From assembly GCA_009664345.1 (NCBI GenBank), contig CP043547.1:5422709-5486708 (forward strand): a DNA stretch of 64,000 nucleotides. Reading direction: 5' to 3'. Below, in pieces: positions 13,214 through 23,062 of the stretch. The DNA comes from Planctomycetales bacterium 10988. Its GTDB lineage: Bacteria; Planctomycetota; Planctomycetia; Pirellulales; Pb10988. Numbering within the stretch: position 1 is the first letter of the stretch; the number at the start of each line of letters is the position of its first letter. Under the pieces are notes generated by a model. That model was not told the origin of the DNA. It saw only the letters and a program-made list of their open reading frames with translations, and ran no database searches. The translations under genes and the position numbers were made by a program.

Positions 13214-15250
13214 CTAAACACGGACCCGCTTGTTATAAAAGAACCACTCCGCTAACAGAATCAAAGCGAGCGGCACCAGCAGATAGCGATACCCTTCGAT
13301 GCGGTGGCTTTGACGAAATTCTTGAGAAGCAACCTCGACATACCCGATCTGCACTTCTTGCTCAGGCTTCAAATCGCTCTCTTGATCATTGAAAAGATTG
13401 ACCGCAAAGTGCGTTTGGCGGTTCTCTCCCCAATTGACTTGATACGCACCAAGCTGTTCCGTTTCGACGAAATCAAACGTATTCCGCCGGTTTCGTTCGA
13501 CTTCCACGGTCTGGCCATTTGGTAAATGGACCTCGATCGTATCGACGACCGCAGGGCCTCGCAACGAAATCGGAGCACCCGGCGGCACGGAGTTCGAGTT
13601 GAGCGACTCTTCTCCACCTCCGAAGTATCGCAACAGTTGATAGACAAAGACCGGGAAGCTAGGACGCAATGGCCAGTTCGTCCCCCAACCGTCATTTTCG
13701 GTGACGATCGGAAAAGCCAAGACGGCGTCTTGAAATCCCCCTCGCGGGGCAATGCTGAGGAGCGAGCCGAGATTCGCTTCGATCAAAGTCCGCGTTCCCG
13801 CTGGGCCTTCCAGATTCGTCATCGCTTCCAAAATCACGACATCGTCTAACTGCACAAACCGCAACAAAGGATGCGAGCGATCCAAGTCAATGATCCCCGG
13901 CCCCCCTGCTGGTTCACCATGACTCCAGGCATCGGAAGGTATTTCATTGATAAAGAAGGTATTCGCAGGCGGAAGTTCCTCCGGCCGGCAGCGATCGAAA
14001 ATGACCAGATCGTAACGTCCGCTGCTGGCGAGTTCTCGATAGTCCTCTGCCTTCAAAACCTCTGGGGAAAGCACTTCCACTTCCGAAATCTTCTTCGAAA
14101 GCTCGGTCCGCAAACAGTACAACAGCGGGCTATTTCCCGACGTGACAACCAAAACGCGACCGGCTCGCGGCGGATTGATCACGGCCCAAGCCCGGTTGTC
14201 AGCCAGGAAAGGATCGTCTTGCACAATGCGGGCTTCGATCACTCCCTCTTCAAAGTTCCGCAACTGAAAGACCAACCCTGCATAGTACGTAACAAGCTGG
14301 GACTCCGCCGAAGGAAGCGAGGCATCCGCTTCTGGGTCCGTTTCTTGGGGATTTGGCTTTCGATCCGGTTTTCCGGGGACATTCACAGACTGAACGCCGA
14401 TCAACTCCCCTTGATGATAAAGTTCAACCTCGACGGTTTTGGCTTCCGCATGATAGTTGTGGAGCCGGACAAACGCCTGCATCTCGTCGGGCCGTTCGGA
14501 ATTGCGTTCCACCCGAAAGGCGATGATGCCGACGTTCTTCGCCCGATCCGAACCGATGGGGATATAGCGAGGTTCCAAATGTTCCAACGAAAAATTCGGC
14601 GGCTCAAAGTTGCCATCACTAAAGAGATAGACCGTCGCAGGCATCGGCTGAGCGATTTGAGCATCCGATAGATCGAAAGCACTTCGCCCTGGATTCGCAA
14701 GACCTGCCGAAACTTTCAAGGCATCTTCGAGGTCCGTCGGGCGTGGAGAGCCTTCGATCTCGCGAATCTTCCGCTTCAGCTCGCTACGATTCTTGGTGAA
14801 AGTCTGTTCGACTTGAGCACGATCAGAAAAGCTGACCACCATCGCCGCGGCATCGGTAGGCATATTATCCACATATCGCAAGGCCGCCTCTTTCGCCAAC
14901 GCCAGGCGTTCGCCTTCTTCCTCCTCCGTTGACATGCTCGCGGAGCGATCGATGAGAAAGATGAAACGCTCCCCGATCAGTTGGGTCCCTCGCCACTGCG
15001 GGCCAGCCAAGGCAAAGAGAAGGAGGAGCAAAAAGAGGAGTTGCAACAAAAGCAGAAGGTTTTGCCTCAGCCGCTGAAAGAGCGAATTGACGTGCAAATC
15101 CTCAACGGTCTTTTTCCAAAGAAACGTGCTGGGCACCTCGACCGGCGTGCGGCGGAGCTTCAAAAAATAGAGTGCCACCAAAAGCAGCGGCAAGGCCAAA
15201 GCGATCAGCCACGGCAGGAAAGGAAGCGATGATTGCCAACTGGGAAACAT
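13214..15250 (-). CDS. BatA-type von Willebrand factor A membrane protein
   Basis: 678 residues. Two membrane spans at the start (10-31 and 63-83) separated by a segment with RRTPVEVPSTFLW, the BatA N-terminal domain, then a von Willebrand A domain with the metal site DRSAS (101-105), a large extracytoplasmic region (about 290-640), and a last span (about 650-670). Metal-dependent adhesion domains of this kind bind partner proteins. Its ATG overlaps the stop of the DUF58 gene by one base (TAATG), so the two are translationally coupled. With the MoxR ATPase upstream this forms a Bat-like operon, thought to serve envelope assembly or stress tolerance; the target here is unknown. Confidence 0.9.
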   Translation of the reverse strand: MFPSWQSSLPFLPWLIALALPLLLVALYFLKLRRTPVEVPSTFLWKKTVEDLHVNSLFQRLRQNLLLLLQLLFLLLLLFALAGPQWRGTQLIGERFIFLIDRSASMSTEEEEGERLALAKEAALRYVDNMPTDAAAMVVSFSDRAQVEQTFTKNRSELKRKIREIEGSPRPTDLEDALKVSAGLANPGRSAFDLSDAQIAQPMPATVYLFSDGNFEPPNFSLEHLEPRYIPIGSDRAKNVGIIAFRVERNSERPDEMQAFVRLHNYHAEAKTVEVELYHQGELIGVQSVNVPGKPDRKPNPQETDPEADASLPSAESQLVTYYAGLVFQLRNFEEGVIEARIVQDDPFLADNRAWAVINPPRAGRVLVVTSGNSPLLYCLRTELSKKISEVEVLSPEVLKAEDYRELASSGRYDLVIFDRCRPEELPPANTFFINEIPSDAWSHGEPAGGPGIIDLDRSHPLLRFVQLDDVVILEAMTNLEGPAGTRTLIEANLGSLLSIAPRGGFQDAVLAFPIVTENDGWGTNWPLRPSFPVFVYQLLRYFGGGEESLNSNSVPPGAPISLRGPAVVDTIEVHLPNGQTVEVERNRRNTFDFVETEQLGAYQVNWGENRQTHFAVNLFNDQESDLKPEQEVQIGYVEVASQEFRQSHRIEGYRYLLVPLALILLAEWFFYNKRVRV

Positions 15251-16173
15251 TAGCGGACCAACCCTCGTTGACGTAAGTACTGGGTAATGATTTGTTCGAA
15301 CGGCTGATCGGTGCGGGCCATCAGATGCACCATCCCTCGTTTCATGCAGAAGGTGCGAAGGCTCTCCACGAAGTTGGCAAGCGTTCGTCGATAGCGTTCA
15401 TACAGTGCGGAAGAAGCGGTGATTTCGGCGATGTCGCCGTCTTCGCAGTCGACCAACTTTAGGTCACCTTGCAAGGCCGGCTCCAACTCCTCGGGCGAAA
15501 GCAACTGAATGACATAGGCATCCATTCGCTGAGCGACGAGATAACGTAACGCCTCTTCGAAACCATTTTTATCCATAAAATCACTGATGACGACGACAAT
15601 GCCTGGGCCGGGATGACGGAGACAAAATCGCTTAATTCCTGTCGTCAGGTCCGTGCTTCCATCCGGCTCCAAATTCTGAAGATAATCCAACATCCGCCAT
15701 AAACTGGCTCGGCCACGCAGTGCGGGAGATCGCCGCGTGACACTTTGATTCATCGTCTCGATCACCACGCGATCCGATTGCGTGAGCCCGATAAACCCGA
15801 GGGCGGCAGCGATTTGCTTGGCGTATTGCAACTTCGTCGGCTCCCCGAAATCCATCGAACGGCTGGTATCGATCAGGGTATAAAAATGGAGGTCTTCCTC
15901 TTCCAGAAACAGTTTGAGGAAGAGTTTGTCCAAGCGAGCATAGAGATTCCAATCGATAAAACGAAGGTCGTCCCCTTTGACATAGTTGCGAAAATCGGCG
16001 AACTCAACGCTTTGACCTCTGCGCTTGCTGCGACGTTCCCCTTTCAGGCGACCTCTGAGAACCTTGCGGCTGACGAGTTCCATCTGTTCGAGCCGAGCCA
16101 AAAACTCCGGAGCCAACAGCGTATTAGCTCGGGGACTGGCGGAAGCAGCAGATTGAGGGGTGTCGGAAGCCAT
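15250..16173 (-). CDS. DUF58 domain protein
   Basis: 307 residues. The DUF58 core is clear: RRSKRRGQSVEFADFRNYVKGDD-type stretch at about 47-70, then DWNLYARLDKLFLKLF and a von Willebrand-like fold with DTSRSM (about 108-113) as metal site. Proteins of this family work with MoxR ATPases and BatA-like proteins, probably as a cytoplasmic adaptor. The stop overlaps the BatA start (TAATG), and the start lies about 60 bases after the MoxR stop, so one transcript from MoxR through BatA is likely. Confidence 0.93.
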   Translation of the reverse strand: MASDTPQSAASASPRANTLLAPEFLARLEQMELVSRKVLRGRLKGERRSKRRGQSVEFADFRNYVKGDDLRFIDWNLYARLDKLFLKLFLEEEDLHFYTLIDTSRSMDFGEPTKLQYAKQIAAALGFIGLTQSDRVVIETMNQSVTRRSPALRGRASLWRMLDYLQNLEPDGSTDLTTGIKRFCLRHPGPGIVVVISDFMDKNGFEEALRYLVAQRMDAYVIQLLSPEELEPALQGDLKLVDCEDGDIAEITASSALYERYRRTLANFVESLRTFCMKRGMVHLMARTDQPFEQIITQYLRQRGLVR

Positions 16174-16187
16174 ACGTTGAATTACCT

Positions 16188-16226
16188 AAAAAGCGATTTT
16201 TGTATTGATGTTAAAAAGTGCTTTTT
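16188..16226. repeat. Paired A/T palindromes between moxR and the DUF58 gene (copy 2 of the word)
   Basis: AAAAAGCGATTTTT (16188-16201) and AAAAAGTGCTTTTT (16213-16226) are separated by 11 bases containing GTATTGATG. The spacer on the other side of moxR (17262-17301) has the same build: A-run, CTTTTTGTATT, then TTAAAAACTACTTTTTA. The two spacers look like copies of one element. Confidence 0.55.
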
Positions 16227-16233
16227 ACAATGA

Positions 16234-17238
16234 TTAACTCTCTGCCTTTTCGGGAACATGTTCCAAAATCTGGACAAGAACTTGATCGGGTTGAATGCCT
16301 TCGGCTTGAGCTTCGAAGTTCAAGAGCACGCGATGCCGCATTGCGGGCAGGAAGACATTGCGGACATCTTCAAAGCTCACATTATAACGGCCTTCCAGCA
16401 AGGCACGGACTTTGGCACAAAGGGCGATGGTTTGTGCTCCCCGCGGAGACGAACCCCAGCGGAGATATTGATTGGTGGCCGGAGCCGCGTAGGGGCCTTC
16501 CGGATGGGTCGCGAGCGTGAGCCGTACAATATAGTCTTGCACATGCTGAGCGAGGAGGACTTCGCGGATGAGGCCTTGCCATTTGAGGATCTCTTCGCCA
16601 TTCATCGCCGGAGTGACCGTTGTGCGAATGCCGCGAGTGGTTCGTTCAATGATGGTATTGAGCTCTTCTCGCGTGCTGTAGCCGACGACAAGCTTGAACA
16701 GGAAACGGTCAAGCTGGGCTTCGGGGAGGGGATAAGTTCCTTCTTGCTCAATCGGGTTCTGCGTGGCCATGACAAAAAACGGTTTTTGCAATCGATAGAT
16801 TTTTCCCCCGACCGTGACGGAGCCTTCTTGCATCGCTTCTAAAAGGGCACTTTGCGTCTTGGGCGTGGCCCGGTTGATTTCATCCGCCAGGCAGATTTGC
16901 GTAAAGATCGGACCTTGCTGAAACTCGAAGACCCGCTTTCCCTCCGGCGTTTCACTGACCATGTTGGTGCCAAGAATGTCCGCTGGCATCAGGTCCGGGG
17001 TAAACTGAATCCGGTTGAAGTCGAGCTTCAGTGCTTCCGACAGAGTCCGCACTAGCAAGGTTTTTCCCAAGCCGGGAACGCCTTCGAGCAGACAGTGGCC
17101 GCCGACGAAAAGACAGGTCAGCACGCCGTGGAGGATCTCTTCATGTCCGACAATCACGCTGGCAAGCTGTTCACGAACCGCTTGATACCTCTGACCAAAT
17201 TCTTCGGCTCGTTCCTGAATGGAATCCGCAACACTCAT
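16234..17238 (-). CDS. MoxR-family AAA+ ATPase
   Basis: 334 residues from the ATG at 17238, with AAGGA eight bases upstream; a GTG six bases earlier is a worse start. Walker A GVPGLGKT (53-60) and Walker B ICLADE (115-120) are intact, with the sensor-1 phrase VMATQNP and an arginine-finger region (PEAQLDRFLFK) further on. It hydrolyses ATP to remodel or activate partners carrying von Willebrand domains, here the adjacent DUF58 and BatA-like proteins and the larger protein encoded upstream. All four genes lie in the same direction with short gaps. Confidence 0.95.
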   Translation of the reverse strand: MSVADSIQERAEEFGQRYQAVREQLASVIVGHEEILHGVLTCLFVGGHCLLEGVPGLGKTLLVRTLSEALKLDFNRIQFTPDLMPADILGTNMVSETPEGKRVFEFQQGPIFTQICLADEINRATPKTQSALLEAMQEGSVTVGGKIYRLQKPFFVMATQNPIEQEGTYPLPEAQLDRFLFKLVVGYSTREELNTIIERTTRGIRTTVTPAMNGEEILKWQGLIREVLLAQHVQDYIVRLTLATHPEGPYAAPATNQYLRWGSSPRGAQTIALCAKVRALLEGRYNVSFEDVRNVFLPAMRHRVLLNFEAQAEGIQPDQVLVQILEHVPEKAES

Positions 17239-17261
17239 GCACACGATCCTTTCGACTATTC

Positions 17262-17301
17262 GAAAATTGCTTTTTGTATTCTCTTTTAAAAACTACTTTT
17301 T
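17262..17301. repeat. Spacer repeat between the large von Willebrand gene and moxR
   Basis: AAAATTGCTTTTTGTATT followed by TTAAAAACTACTTTTTA. It parallels the element at 16188-16226 base by base in most positions and overlaps the last codons of the upstream gene (KK-stop). Confidence 0.5.
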
Positions 17302-20300
17302 ATCTTTGTCGGGATTGTCTCGATCTTCCCAGACTTTTTTCTTGGCTTTCAGGAGGCGATCGGTATAGGACTCGGGCTGTTCCTCTTTTTCTTTCGGAGC
17401 CGCCATTCCGCCGGAAGTTTGAGGGCCACGCGATGTCGGTTGGTCCGTCTTGGGTGCTTCCCCGGAGAGTATCTCTTCGGCCGTACCTTTCGTGGTCGAT
17501 TCCTCGGGTTCGAAGCGAGTTGCCGAACGCCGCTTCTCGATTGATTGGCCGACCTCTTCCTTGCGGCTCTTGAGTCGGCTCATGAACTCGGGTTCCGCTT
17601 CGACTTTCTTTCGCGTGAAGCGGGCGCGGACTTTCTTCGCAAGCCTTGGCACCCAGGCCCAACTGAGTTGGACGCGGCGGTTGAAAACATCCAAGAGAAA
17701 CAGGAGCGAAGCAAAGAACAAGACCCAGTGCCAAGCGTCTTGCGTACTCATTACCGGAGGGAGATCATGACGAAAAGGATTTACCTCCAAGAGGGCTTCC
17801 AGCGTGGGGCGATCCTCCGGAGCTTGGATCATTTCGCCGGGGTTTCCGTCTTCCGGCGTTAGCGATACGATCTGTTGCAAGAGCCGTTGATTGGTATCTT
17901 GTTCGCGAAACTCTGGGGAATACGGGACCGTCACGCCGGAGCGAATGGGGGCCTTCCCCGCGCCGGGGCTGGTGACCAAGATGTAACTGCCGGCGTCCTC
18001 GGCTTCGAAATTTGCGATATAGCGGCCGGGGCCTTCTTGCACTAAGGGGACGGTTTCCGCGACGCCATCGGGGCGAAGAACGGTCGTTTGCATAGAGAGG
18101 TTATTGAGGAACGCATCGTCTTGATCAAGGGCGTTGATGATGAGCCGTGCCTGCCCATCATTGATTTCGGTGACGACATTGAACTTTCCGCCTTCGGTGG
18201 AAGGCCGCATCGAGAAACGAACCAGTCGCGAGAAGAACGCGTCATAGCCTTCCCAATTCGTCCAACTATTTGCCCAGCGGTGCCCGGCATCGGTGGTGAA
18301 AGCGATTGACTTACCCAGTCCGTATTGCCAATGAGCAAGGAGCGTGCGGTTTTCCGGTTCCGCCGGCGGTCCTGGCAGCGGCGAAACAAGGGACACTTCG
18401 ACGAGAGGGTTTTTCTTTAACGTACTCAGCACATAGCCGGTGATCGGCGGGAAGCCATCAATGCCTCGCACGATTTCCGATGGGAAAGCGACTTGTGGGG
18501 TAAAAGGGTTCGCCGTGTTTTCATAAATGAGCGGCCGCGCGACGCGGCGGGCTTCCCGCTGATAAATCTTTGGCAAGAGGCGGGGGTCTTGCACGCGGAT
18601 ATATTTTCCACCGGTCTTCGAGGCAATGTCACGCATCTGTTTTTCATCGGGTGCCCCGTGCGTTCCCACGGCAACCGTCGTGACGGTCACCTTCATCGCT
18701 TTGAGTTGATCGAGGGTCGCCTGCCTGGGCGGGGTCGGGTCGCCATCGCTAATAATGATCATGTGCCGGACCGCGGCGTCTTTAATTCGGGCGAATCCTT
18801 GCCGGGCGAGAACGAGGGCGGGGTCGAATGTCGGCATGTCGCCAGGGAGCATGCGATCGATCAGGGCCAGCATCTGGCGGCGATTTTGACCCACGGTGAG
18901 AAAGCCGCTGCCGCCTTGATTCCACATCCATTGGTCTTGCCCATTCCAATGCAACAGCCCACAATAGTCCTGACTGCCGAGCGTTTCGATGGCACTTTTG
19001 GCGATGATCTTCTGCCAATGATTTCCGTTGGACATCTCCGAGGCATGCATCAAGAGGGCCAAGGCTCCTTTGGGAATCACCTTGGCGGATTTGATCTCAA
19101 AATCGATCGGCATCGCCTCTTCGAGCTTTGAATTGACCCAACCACCGGCCCCGAAGCTATTCGATCCCCCGAGCAACACCAACCCGGCCCCGGTGTCGTG
19201 GGTGTTTTGCACCAGAAATTCGATCTGCCGTTCCGATTCAAACTGATCTCTGGGGACATCGGCTAGAATGACGGTATCGAAGGCCTGTAAGTCGGCAAGC
19301 GTGCGAAAGGCCGAAGCGGCAGGCCGATCGATCACTTCGAGGTTTTCGTTTCGCAACGAGTTGATCAGCGTCGAAAAATTGCCGGTGTTCTCCGCGGAAC
19401 TATTTTGAATGAACAGAACGCGGGCGGCACCTTCCACATGCAACAAGGCCGTGGCCTCATTGTTCTGCCGGATGGTATCGGCTTGATCTTCATCGGGAAT
19501 GAAGGTCGCTTCGAAGCGATAGAAGTTCGGCTGGCGAATCGTTTGGCGAAAAGTAAAGACATTCTTGCCGGGGTCCAGCGTTACCTGCTGATCTTCTTCA
19601 TTAGGGTTTAAGAGAATCGTTTGATCTTCGGTCTTTTGCGAAAGGACGAGCCTTCCGGAAATCCGGCCGTTATTGCCGGGCCGAGGGGTCGCGGTGTTTT
19701 CCAAAACCACGCGGAGATCGAACGGCTCGCCCCGGCGAACGCCTTCGGGGAGCGCGAGCTTTTCCACAAGGACATCTTGGCGATGTTGATAATAGACGGG
19801 AACGACATCGAAGCCGATGCCTGCTTCTTGGGCAGCTTTGGCTTGTTGCAACGCGTCGCCGCGGTTTTCATTTCCATCTGTCAGCACCACGATTCGCTTG
19901 GCGGTTCCTTCTGGAAACGAGGCCATGGCAAGCTTGATGGCGGAGGAAAGATCGGTCAGGTTCGGATCGACTTCGGTTTCAGGACGCAGCGGGATTTGCA
20001 GATCGTCATCGAACGGCGGCATCTCGATTCCAGCCTGCCTGCCAAAGACGATCACGCCGACTTGATCATCATTGACACGGTGTTCGCGAATCGCCCGATT
20101 CACATAAAGGACCATCTCTTCGCGGCTTTCCTCCGGAATACTGCGGGAAAGGTCCAGGCAAAAGATCGTCGTGAGTTGTTTACTGACTTGCTGGATTTGG
20201 ACTTCCGCCATGGCCAAGATGAGGGCGACAAAGACCAGCGTTCGCAAGAGAAGGGCAATGATTCGACGCGAAAATCCTAGACTGGCGAGGCTCTGCCAAC

Positions 20301-20385
20301 TTGCCCACCAGAGCAGCGGAAGGAAGATCAACAACCACAAATAAAGCGGTTGTTGAAAAGTTAGTTGATAGTCGAACATCGCCAT
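17293..20385 (-). CDS. Large membrane protein with two von Willebrand-type segments and a glutamine-amidotransferase-like fold
   Basis: 1030 residues, first gene of the minus-strand cluster. Two membrane spans (14-31 and 40-62), a von Willebrand domain with metal site DLSRS (78-82), a beta-rich stretch, a class I glutamine-amidotransferase-like region (about 335-420) containing LLGGSNSFGAGGW, a second metal-site-like region around HMIIISDGDPTPP (about 540), and a final span (about 880-905). The last 130 residues are charged and should be cytoplasmic. This layout is common in planctomycetes next to MoxR/BatA. It probably acts as the large extracytoplasmic partner of the MoxR complex; the role is inferred from neighbours. 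Confidence 0.88.
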   Translation of the reverse strand: MAMFDYQLTFQQPLYLWLLIFLPLLWWASWQSLASLGFSRRIIALLLRTLVFVALILAMAEVQIQQVSKQLTTIFCLDLSRSIPEESREEMVLYVNRAIREHRVNDDQVGVIVFGRQAGIEMPPFDDDLQIPLRPETEVDPNLTDLSSAIKLAMASFPEGTAKRIVVLTDGNENRGDALQQAKAAQEAGIGFDVVPVYYQHRQDVLVEKLALPEGVRRGEPFDLRVVLENTATPRPGNNGRISGRLVLSQKTEDQTILLNPNEEDQQVTLDPGKNVFTFRQTIRQPNFYRFEATFIPDEDQADTIRQNNEATALLHVEGAARVLFIQNSSAENTGNFSTLINSLRNENLEVIDRPAASAFRTLADLQAFDTVILADVPRDQFESERQIEFLVQNTHDTGAGLVLLGGSNSFGAGGWVNSKLEEAMPIDFEIKSAKVIPKGALALLMHASEMSNGNHWQKIIAKSAIETLGSQDYCGLLHWNGQDQWMWNQGGSGFLTVGQNRRQMLALIDRMLPGDMPTFDPALVLARQGFARIKDAAVRHMIIISDGDPTPPRQATLDQLKAMKVTVTTVAVGTHGAPDEKQMRDIASKTGGKYIRVQDPRLLPKIYQREARRVARPLIYENTANPFTPQVAFPSEIVRGIDGFPPITGYVLSTLKKNPLVEVSLVSPLPGPPAEPENRTLLAHWQYGLGKSIAFTTDAGHRWANSWTNWEGYDAFFSRLVRFSMRPSTEGGKFNVVTEINDGQARLIINALDQDDAFLNNLSMQTTVLRPDGVAETVPLVQEGPGRYIANFEAEDAGSYILVTSPGAGKAPIRSGVTVPYSPEFREQDTNQRLLQQIVSLTPEDGNPGEMIQAPEDRPTLEALLEVNPFRHDLPPVMSTQDAWHWVLFFASLLFLLDVFNRRVQLSWAWVPRLAKKVRARFTRKKVEAEPEFMSRLKSRKEEVGQSIEKRRSATRFEPEESTTKGTAEEILSGEAPKTDQPTSRGPQTSGGMAAPKEKEEQPESYTDRLLKAKKKVWEDRDNPDKDKK

Positions 20386-21844: not shown

Positions 21845-23062
21845 ATGGGAAGTTGGTCCTACATGAAAGGCATGTTGGCGGTCGTATTAAATATTGTCTT
21901 AACCATGATGTGCTGGGGTCTGTATGGAGTCGTACTCCATGAAGGTCAGCACGAAATGGGCAACAGTCGCTTACGCCCCTTTATTTGTGTCGGGCTGGCT
22001 TACTTTTTGATCGCGGTGTTGATTCCTGGACTTTACTTGCTGCTTCGACAGGAAAAAGGGGCTTGGACGATTACCGGGAGTATCTGGAGCCTGATCGCCG
22101 GGGCCGCCGGGGCAGTCGGGGCGTTGGGGATCATTCTCGCTTTTGCTTTTTATGGAAAACCGATTTATGTCATGCCGCTGGTCTTCGGCGGGGCTCCAGT
22201 GGTCAATACCTTGCTCACGATGTGGATGGCCAAAACCTTCAAGTCCATTGGTCCGCTATTCTGTCTAGGTTTGGCTCTCGTCATCTCTGGAGCCGCCTTG
22301 GTGATGACGTCCAAACCTGCTCCGCGACGTGCCGTGGCCATGGAACGCACCATTGAAGGCAAACTGGTCTCGCTTGATGAAACCGCCGATGGAGATTTGG
22401 TGCTGGAAGTGACCGAAGCACCGACGGAGACCGAAGTTGCCGAGCCAAAAGTTTACGAAGCTACTAACGCCGTGGAACTGAAAGAGGAGCATCCGGAAGC
22501 TTATGGATACTATTATAATCTACGGAACGGCACCCTCTTCGAACGGTCAATGGTGATTGTCTTTGTGTTGATGACCGCCCTGTGCTGGGGTTGCTACGGC
22601 CCCGTTCTGCACAAAGGACAGATGCTCATGCAGGGCAGTCGCTTGCGGCCGTTGATCTGTGTCGGCTTGGCCTATTTCCTGATCGCGGTTTGTATTCCTT
22701 TCGCCCTCTTGGAAATCCAAGGCGAGCCGGGACTTTGGACCTTTAACGGTTCTCTATGGAGTCTCGGAGCGGGTGCCGCCGGGGCGTTTGGTGCGTTGGG
22801 AATTATTTTGGCTTTCACTTTCGGAGGTCGCCCGGTAGTCGTCATGCCGCTGGTCTTCGGCGGAGCCCCCGTGGTCAATACGATTGCTACATTAATTGTC
22901 AACGGAAATTATTTTGATGTTCACCCGGTGTTTTATGCCGGTTTGACCATGGTCGCTACCGGAGCGGTCATGGTGCTGATCTTCTCGCCCAAGCCGCAGA
23001 AGAAGGCCGCTCCTCCGGAACGATCACGACGCTCAACGAGGAGTGCCCCGGTCGAATCGTGA
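21845..23062 (+). CDS. Polytopic membrane protein made of two duplicated halves
   Basis: 405 residues. Residues 23-122 and 247-346 align without a gap at an offset of 224, and 72 of 100 positions are identical by direct count. Each half has about four membrane spans and the shared phrases CWG-YG-VLH-GQ, RLRP-ICVGLAYFLIAV, GAAGA-GALGIILAF and VMPLVFGGAPVVNT. A charged linker (155-235) joins the halves. The Gly-rich helices recall drug/metabolite transporters (EamA), but each half seems to have four spans rather than five, so the family is uncertain. Likely a small-molecule transporter or sensor. The start at 21845 has no ribosome site; M7 at 21863 is an alternative. Confidence 0.85.
   Translation: MGSWSYMKGMLAVVLNIVLTMMCWGLYGVVLHEGQHEMGNSRLRPFICVGLAYFLIAVLIPGLYLLLRQEKGAWTITGSIWSLIAGAAGAVGALGIILAFAFYGKPIYVMPLVFGGAPVVNTLLTMWMAKTFKSIGPLFCLGLALVISGAALVMTSKPAPRRAVAMERTIEGKLVSLDETADGDLVLEVTEAPTETEVAEPKVYEATNAVELKEEHPEAYGYYYNLRNGTLFERSMVIVFVLMTALCWGCYGPVLHKGQMLMQGSRLRPLICVGLAYFLIAVCIPFALLEIQGEPGLWTFNGSLWSLGAGAAGAFGALGIILAFTFGGRPVVVMPLVFGGAPVVNTIATLIVNGNYFDVHPVFYAGLTMVATGAVMVLIFSPKPQKKAAPPERSRRSTRSAPVES

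Follow-up and report, generated by a model that had tools for sequence, protein, structure and literature searches.

A planctomycete membrane protein family with unusually similar halves, probably an inverted repeat of an EamA-like unit

The window analyzed here, a stretch of 64,000 nucleotides from the genome of Planctomycetales bacterium 10988, holds the gene of a membrane protein composed of two similar units (Table 1). Translation perhaps begins at M7, beyond window positions 21845-21862; relatives align from about this residue, which is an invariant column of the alignment at or near their own starts. The two units are joined by a linker that is reduced or missing in many relatives, and the 6.65-Mb one-contig genome contains one match to the protein. 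Elsewhere in the window, on the reverse strand at 13214-20385, lies a cluster of four genes, read from their translations, which we take to encode a MoxR-type ATPase, a DUF58-like protein, and two von Willebrand/BatA-like membrane proteins.

Table 1. Features of the two-unit membrane protein gene (positions are those of the window)
Feature	Position	Strand	Basis
Two-unit membrane protein gene, 405 aa	21845..23062	+	ORF; ATG at 21863 (M7) is a possible true start
N-terminal five-helix unit, residues about 5-162	21857..22330	+	HMM domain
Linker, residues about 163-230, predicted outside	22331..22534	+	Domain limits and alignment
C-terminal five-helix unit, residues about 231-386	22535..23002	+	HMM domain
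Repeat core copy 1, residues 23-122	21911..22210	+	72/100 identities
Repeat core copy 2, residues 247-346	22583..22882	+	72/100 identities
23-nt exact stretch encoding VMPLVFGG, copy 1	22169..22191	+	Located by eye; p 0.007 against codon shuffles
23-nt exact stretch, copy 2	22841..22863	+	Located by eye; identical to 22169-22191

When the protein is slid along itself, an offset of 224 yields 87 identities over 181 residues, and the runner-up among offsets 100-329 yields 28 over 303. A preliminary description of this DNA had counted 72 identities over 100 residues at this offset, and our recount of the core gives exactly 72; identity between the halves is 51% when the unit is compared over its full length. 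At the DNA level, 197 of 300 core positions agree, and the 72 identical residues use the same codon in 34 cases and a synonymous one in 38. The same description had proposed comparing synonymous divergence between the halves, searching for single-half homologues, and predicting topology and structure. Synonymous sites between the halves proved to be near saturation, with dS values of 1.60 (NG86) and 0.93 (YN00), and dN is 0.28-0.33.

Single-unit homologues do exist: units of about 180 amino acids occur across Planctomycetota, and fused doubles occur across Pirellulales. A search of related genomes found homologues, mostly with two units, in 53 of 57 genomes (the organism's own genome counted), and a search of the phylum found them in 93 of 392 genomes, mostly as one unit. 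Among 146 ORFs with a domain hit, fragments and duplicates counted, 98 have one hit and 48 have two. No relative was found in a scan of viral contigs. For the comparisons below, we dropped duplicates (L001, L037, and L031), fragments (L083 and L143), divergent doubles (L068, L138, L140, and L142), and broken or contig-edge genes (L028, L075, L003, L008, and L064), and the charge counts of single units were also made without L135 (plus L141 in one count). Across 166 units of all kinds, 23 columns are conserved at a level of at least 90% and make up a glycine-rich helix core. A second, divergent two-unit form of 366 amino acids, the halves of which are 23% identical, was seen at L138 (3045-4142, reverse strand) and L140, in two genomes of the same class without a reported single unit; it possibly stems from an independent duplication.

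Averaged hydropathy profiles contain five hydrophobic segments per unit, the fourth of which is less hydrophobic than the others. Five helices per unit were also returned by AlphaFold2, both for the whole protein (5 alignment rows, pLDDT 42.5), in which they span residues 2-37, 44-67, 76-101, 110-129, and 137-155 in the N-terminal unit and 231-261, 267-291, 300-325, 330-353, and 361-380 in the C-terminal unit, and for the C-terminal half alone (10 alignment rows, pLDDT 63.1). Both are low-confidence models, which give helices but no trustworthy fold. Fold searches were uninformative and list no DMT match: Foldseek had a best E value of 1.6, and the top row of VIA-align was the APH-1 subunit of gamma-secretase at Z 9.1, a value in the range that VIA-align calls common for helical bundles, with no DMT transporter among the rows shown. 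A sequence search for a solved relative found none; its best match, prostaglandin reductase 2 at an E value of 0.052, was taken as chance.

The window protein has no Pfam or NCBIfam model above cut-off. A Pfam scan down to an E value of 1 did not list EamA (PF00892), the gathering score of which is not reached; a holin-like match (PF07332, 15.3-17.8 bits against a cut-off of 28.4) was taken as chance. The genome of the window has no EamA match at an E value of 0.001, and none of five scanned single units (L011, L045, L046, L054, and L126) reaches the EamA cut-off, L126 scoring 20.8 bits where 28.2 are needed. A distant relationship is nevertheless suggested by two comparisons of profiles. A profile built from only the two halves of the window protein matches L068 at an E value of 9.5e-8, and L068 is itself an EamA protein (E 2.8e-21). 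Furthermore, profile-profile alignment (hhalign) of the family with EamA gave a probability of 88% over 137 columns, with 0.6% for the reversed control; by subset, the probability was 93% for single units alone, 58% for N-halves, and only 4% for C-halves. The unit thus appears to be distantly related to the EamA repeat of the DMT superfamily, with which it shares five helices, occurrence as a single or tandem unit, and profile similarity across its whole length. It differs from EamA in that the window protein and the five scanned single units stay under the Pfam cut-off, and in how alike the halves are. In 26 two-domain EamA proteins of the same phylum, the halves are on average 17.6% identical (10.2-26.4), which bears out the earlier statement that EamA halves have diverged far more; because of this average, the identity of about 50% between the halves of the present family is unusual. 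In the parts of the literature available to us on this planctomycete family and on fused inverted-repeat EamA-type transporters, we recognized no description of it. The earlier suggestion of an undescribed transporter family is plausible, given that no Pfam or NCBIfam model fits the window protein above cut-off.

The orientation of the halves was predicted from the number of spans and from the Lys+Arg bias, defined as the count in loops on the side of the unit's N terminus minus that in loops on the other side. An odd number of spans per unit requires that tandem units face opposite ways. Across the 38 usable doubles, the mean bias is +2.26 for N-halves and -4.00 for C-halves. The bias of the N-half is above that of the C-half in all 38, and in 33 (30-31 with shifted loop limits) the former is positive and the latter negative. 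As the N and C clades are each inherited, the 38 cases are not independent events and show persistence rather than repeated origin. The charge signal of the N-half is the weaker one, with a bias of at most 2 either way in 20 of 38 N-halves and in 4 of 38 C-halves. In the window protein, the N-half has a bias of 0 and the C-half one of -6, values that differ without having opposite signs; its N-unit is predicted, by analogy to other N-halves, to have its N terminus inside and its C terminus outside, and its C-unit is predicted to have the reverse orientation. The opposite bias across the family points to an inverted pseudo-twofold repeat, a prediction that agrees with the odd helix count and speaks against the parallel topology that had been proposed for this protein.

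The bias of single units lies between those of the two halves, at a mean of -0.32 in 25 loci of the same class, -1.44 in 16 Pirellulales loci, and -1.94 in 49 other loci. It is at most 2 either way in 21 of 25, 12 of 16, and 28 of 49 of these, respectively. Consensus sequences of the N- and C-halves are identical in 112 of 156 columns, and they differ at 10 of the 12 columns with Lys or Arg, compared with 34 of the 144 others (Fisher p 6e-5; counts taken by hand from the consensus strings). Under our own assignment of loops, 9 of these 10 Lys/Arg changes fit the predicted orientations; the misfit is near the end of helix 5 in the N-half.

Taken together, we consider it probable that these proteins make up a new DMT-like family of antiparallel two-domain proteins that diverge slowly. 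Each would be a 10-helix, transporter-like protein in which a five-helix EamA-like unit is present twice, orientation and transport both being predicted. An inverted pseudo-twofold repeat would permit alternating access as in DMT transporters. The succession from a single unit to an antiparallel two-domain protein resembles the logic set out for DUF606 (YdcZ) in a mini-review (PMC3962082). The window protein differs in having no DUF606 match in the Pfam scan down to an E value of 1. The single units are also similar to the dual-topology SMR/EmrE transporters in their small size and low charge bias, whereas SMR/EmrE proteins have four spans, an even number that the same mini-review considers unsuited to fusion; here, five predicted spans and fusion occur together.

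A tree of 92 units contains a branch with support 99/98 that has every one of the 38 N-halves on one side and, on the other, all 38 C-halves together with 16 single units from Pirellulales. The bootstrap of this tree had not fully settled (0.984). This separation of N-halves from C-halves argues for one old duplication behind all sampled doubles. The branch between the ancestral N- and C-halves has a length of 0.167 changes per site, whereas the tips lie at mean depths of 0.73-1.02 below their clade nodes, and such a short branch suggests that at the time of fusion the halves resembled each other far more closely than they do now. Each of the 38 doubles is encoded by a single ORF, and the N-halves are joined by none of the 16 single units. 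Most simply, fusion had thus occurred in the common ancestor of the doubles by the time its halves differed by about 0.167 changes per site. The consensus halves, a cruder measure than branch length, agree at 72%, and living halves agree on average at 49%.

We envisage that the ancestor was a single unit working as a dimer, and that this unit was duplicated and fused in the ancestor of the sampled Pirellulales doubles, with halves then much more alike. Charge changes after the fusion would have fixed the orientations of the halves, and the same constraint on the helix core of both would explain why about half of the residues still match. Several Pirellulales single units share the gene neighborhood of the doubles (for example, L186, L191, L193-L195, and L197), which makes loss of the N-half likely in at least the group f15, of which a related genome keeps a double (L035). 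Outgroups added to a quick tree placed the root within the N side, with weak support (75). It is conceivable, although we would not expect it on balance, that the family preserves the step of a fused near-homodimer: a weakly biased unit was duplicated and directly fused at about 72-85% likeness of its halves (a range taken from the consensus comparison and the branch length), was then locked in orientation largely by Lys/Arg changes, and in at least one lineage returned to a single unit of weaker bias. The DUF606 mini-review reports that no fused homodimer had been found in that family and that the evidence did not tell whether fusion was direct or came later, between pairs that had already diverged (PMC3962082), a question on which the present family may bear.

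The alternative that survives best is the route proposed there for DUF606, in which the duplicated genes first diverge as separate genes for an oppositely oriented pair and are fused later (PMC3962082). The consistent charge difference between the halves of all 38 doubles could indeed predate the fusion. We consider this order of events unlikely, though to be taken seriously, for the branch of 0.167 leaves little time for a paired stage, and single units that group with N-halves are missing from the tree. In addition, no adjacent intact pair of single-unit genes, the stage described for DUF606, was seen among the loci with hits (flanks of 1.5 to about 5 kb). More than one ORF with a hit occurs only at L028 and L143, which seem to be defective loci, a frame-broken double and a broken copy.

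For functional context, we compared the gene neighborhoods of 59 Pirellulales loci, the window counted and two of them being contigs of one genome. Of the 54 loci in which an upstream gene can be seen, 23 have a co-directional gene for an FtsX-like permease directly upstream. The next gene downstream encodes, in 16 of 57 loci, a protein of roughly 118 amino acids, p118, which has no Pfam match at an E value of 0.001. A gene for an ABC ATPase on the same strand is no more than five genes away in 16 of the 59. Counted from often short stretches around the gene, the 75 loci outside Pirellulales include FtsX in 28, a 4HBT thioesterase in 25, a GT4 glycosyltransferase in 23, and an ABC ATPase in 21. 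At L045, L107, and other loci outside the order, these form a compact cluster of GT4, 4HBT thioesterase, the unit, ABC ATPase, and FtsX, which suggests an uncharacterized envelope or lipid pathway. A gene for p118 (an example is L155, 8607-8960, reverse strand) also adjoins the unit in L125 and L135, members of the family group f70 outside the order, and p118 is a possible functional partner. In the window's genome, relatives of FtsX and p118 are far from the gene, and this neighborhood has been lost.

Genes of queuosine biosynthesis also recur near the gene in many of the Pirellulales loci L144-L199 (for example, L176, L173, L166, and L177). Within five genes in the 59 loci, the opposite strand carries queE in 16 and queC in 15, and the same strand carries queE in 1 and queF in 14. 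Converging on the gene, queE and queC are probably neighbors rather than members of an operon. A role as a queuosine-precursor transporter was not adopted because of this placement of queE and queC on the opposite strand.

The FtsX/ABC context leads us to guess at an envelope-related role in export or flipping. The same recurrence of FtsX inside and outside the order, and of p118 within it, could be read as the sign of a protein with a DMT-like fold that is no transporter and serves instead as an assembly or regulatory partner of the adjoining FtsX/ABC system. We regard such a role as improbable, somewhat more so than late fusion, given that the FtsX and p118 relatives lie far off in the window's genome, and that a glycine-rich helix core kept in all kinds of unit would suit a moving transporter.

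Far less probable is the explanation given in the preliminary description, namely that the in-frame duplication was recent, or that gene conversion acted strongly enough to hold the halves alike. Several observations on the window protein do lean this way. Its core identity of 72% ranks first among the 38 usable doubles (52-72%), and it exceeds the mean core identity of the window N-half with all C-halves (64.4%) and of the window C-half with all N-halves (64.3%), ranking second and first of 38, respectively; since the core was chosen for the best self-match, part of this excess is a product of selection. Forcing the two window halves into one clade costs 25.9 log units and is not rejected at the 5% level in the AU test (p 0.079). 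The 23-nucleotide exact run over VMPLVFGG is longer than expected from codon shuffles (p 0.007), and exact runs of at least 23 nucleotides were counted in 5 of 38 self pairs, compared with 26 of 1406 cross pairs. When synonymous codons were shuffled within genes, 12 of the 38 doubles, the window among them, had overlong exact runs, and 16 had an excess of identical nucleotides (p<0.05 each); a test based on codon usage, made on 37 of the 38, gave 14 with long runs and 20 with excess identities at p<0.05.

On average, the shuffles are exceeded by only 7.4 identical bases out of about 315. This small excess could come from short tracts of conversion or from codon-context effects specific to a genome, and neither accounts for most of the protein similarity. 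Across the 38 doubles, N- and C-halves are on average 49.2% identical within a protein and 48.5% identical between species, and the self identity of the window protein is 0.75 points above expectation. Private residues common to both halves number 4.13 between species and 4.42 within, and 2 in the window protein. As self identity is hardly above that between species, the resemblance of the halves is mainly retained and not recent. This agrees with the near-saturated synonymous sites and with the 99/98 branch that sets the N-halves apart. Neither a recent duplication nor continuing conversion as the main cause is supported by these data, and similar halves in many doubles, together with high synonymous divergence, are what the preliminary description had itself named as evidence for an old repeat. 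Conversion has left short nucleotide tracts at most, which may have formed occasionally.

It is similarly very unlikely that each half has four parallel spans, as in a sensor or channel with twofold symmetry normal to the membrane; the earlier count of four and the weaker fourth hydropathy segment would allow it, but each unit has five segments by hydropathy and five helices in the models, the EamA alignment spans the whole unit, and the halves are of opposite charge bias, all of which goes against it.

In conclusion, we favor an old, fused, and probably inverted repeat of an EamA-like unit as the origin of this family. In many inverted-repeat transporters, the halves have diverged almost beyond recognition, and the route from a small dual-orientation unit to a fused protein is therefore difficult to follow. 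In the present case, one bacterial phylum contains single units, fused doubles, and apparent reversions, and the halves are still about 50% identical, with ancestral halves that were probably closer. This makes it directly testable in which order duplication, fusion, and charge inversion took place. A family that the Pfam and NCBIfam models leave unnamed for the window protein is added as well, and it has a recurrent envelope-type gene context. It shows with unusual clarity how a small subunit of a transporter may become a transporter of double size, transport being predicted.
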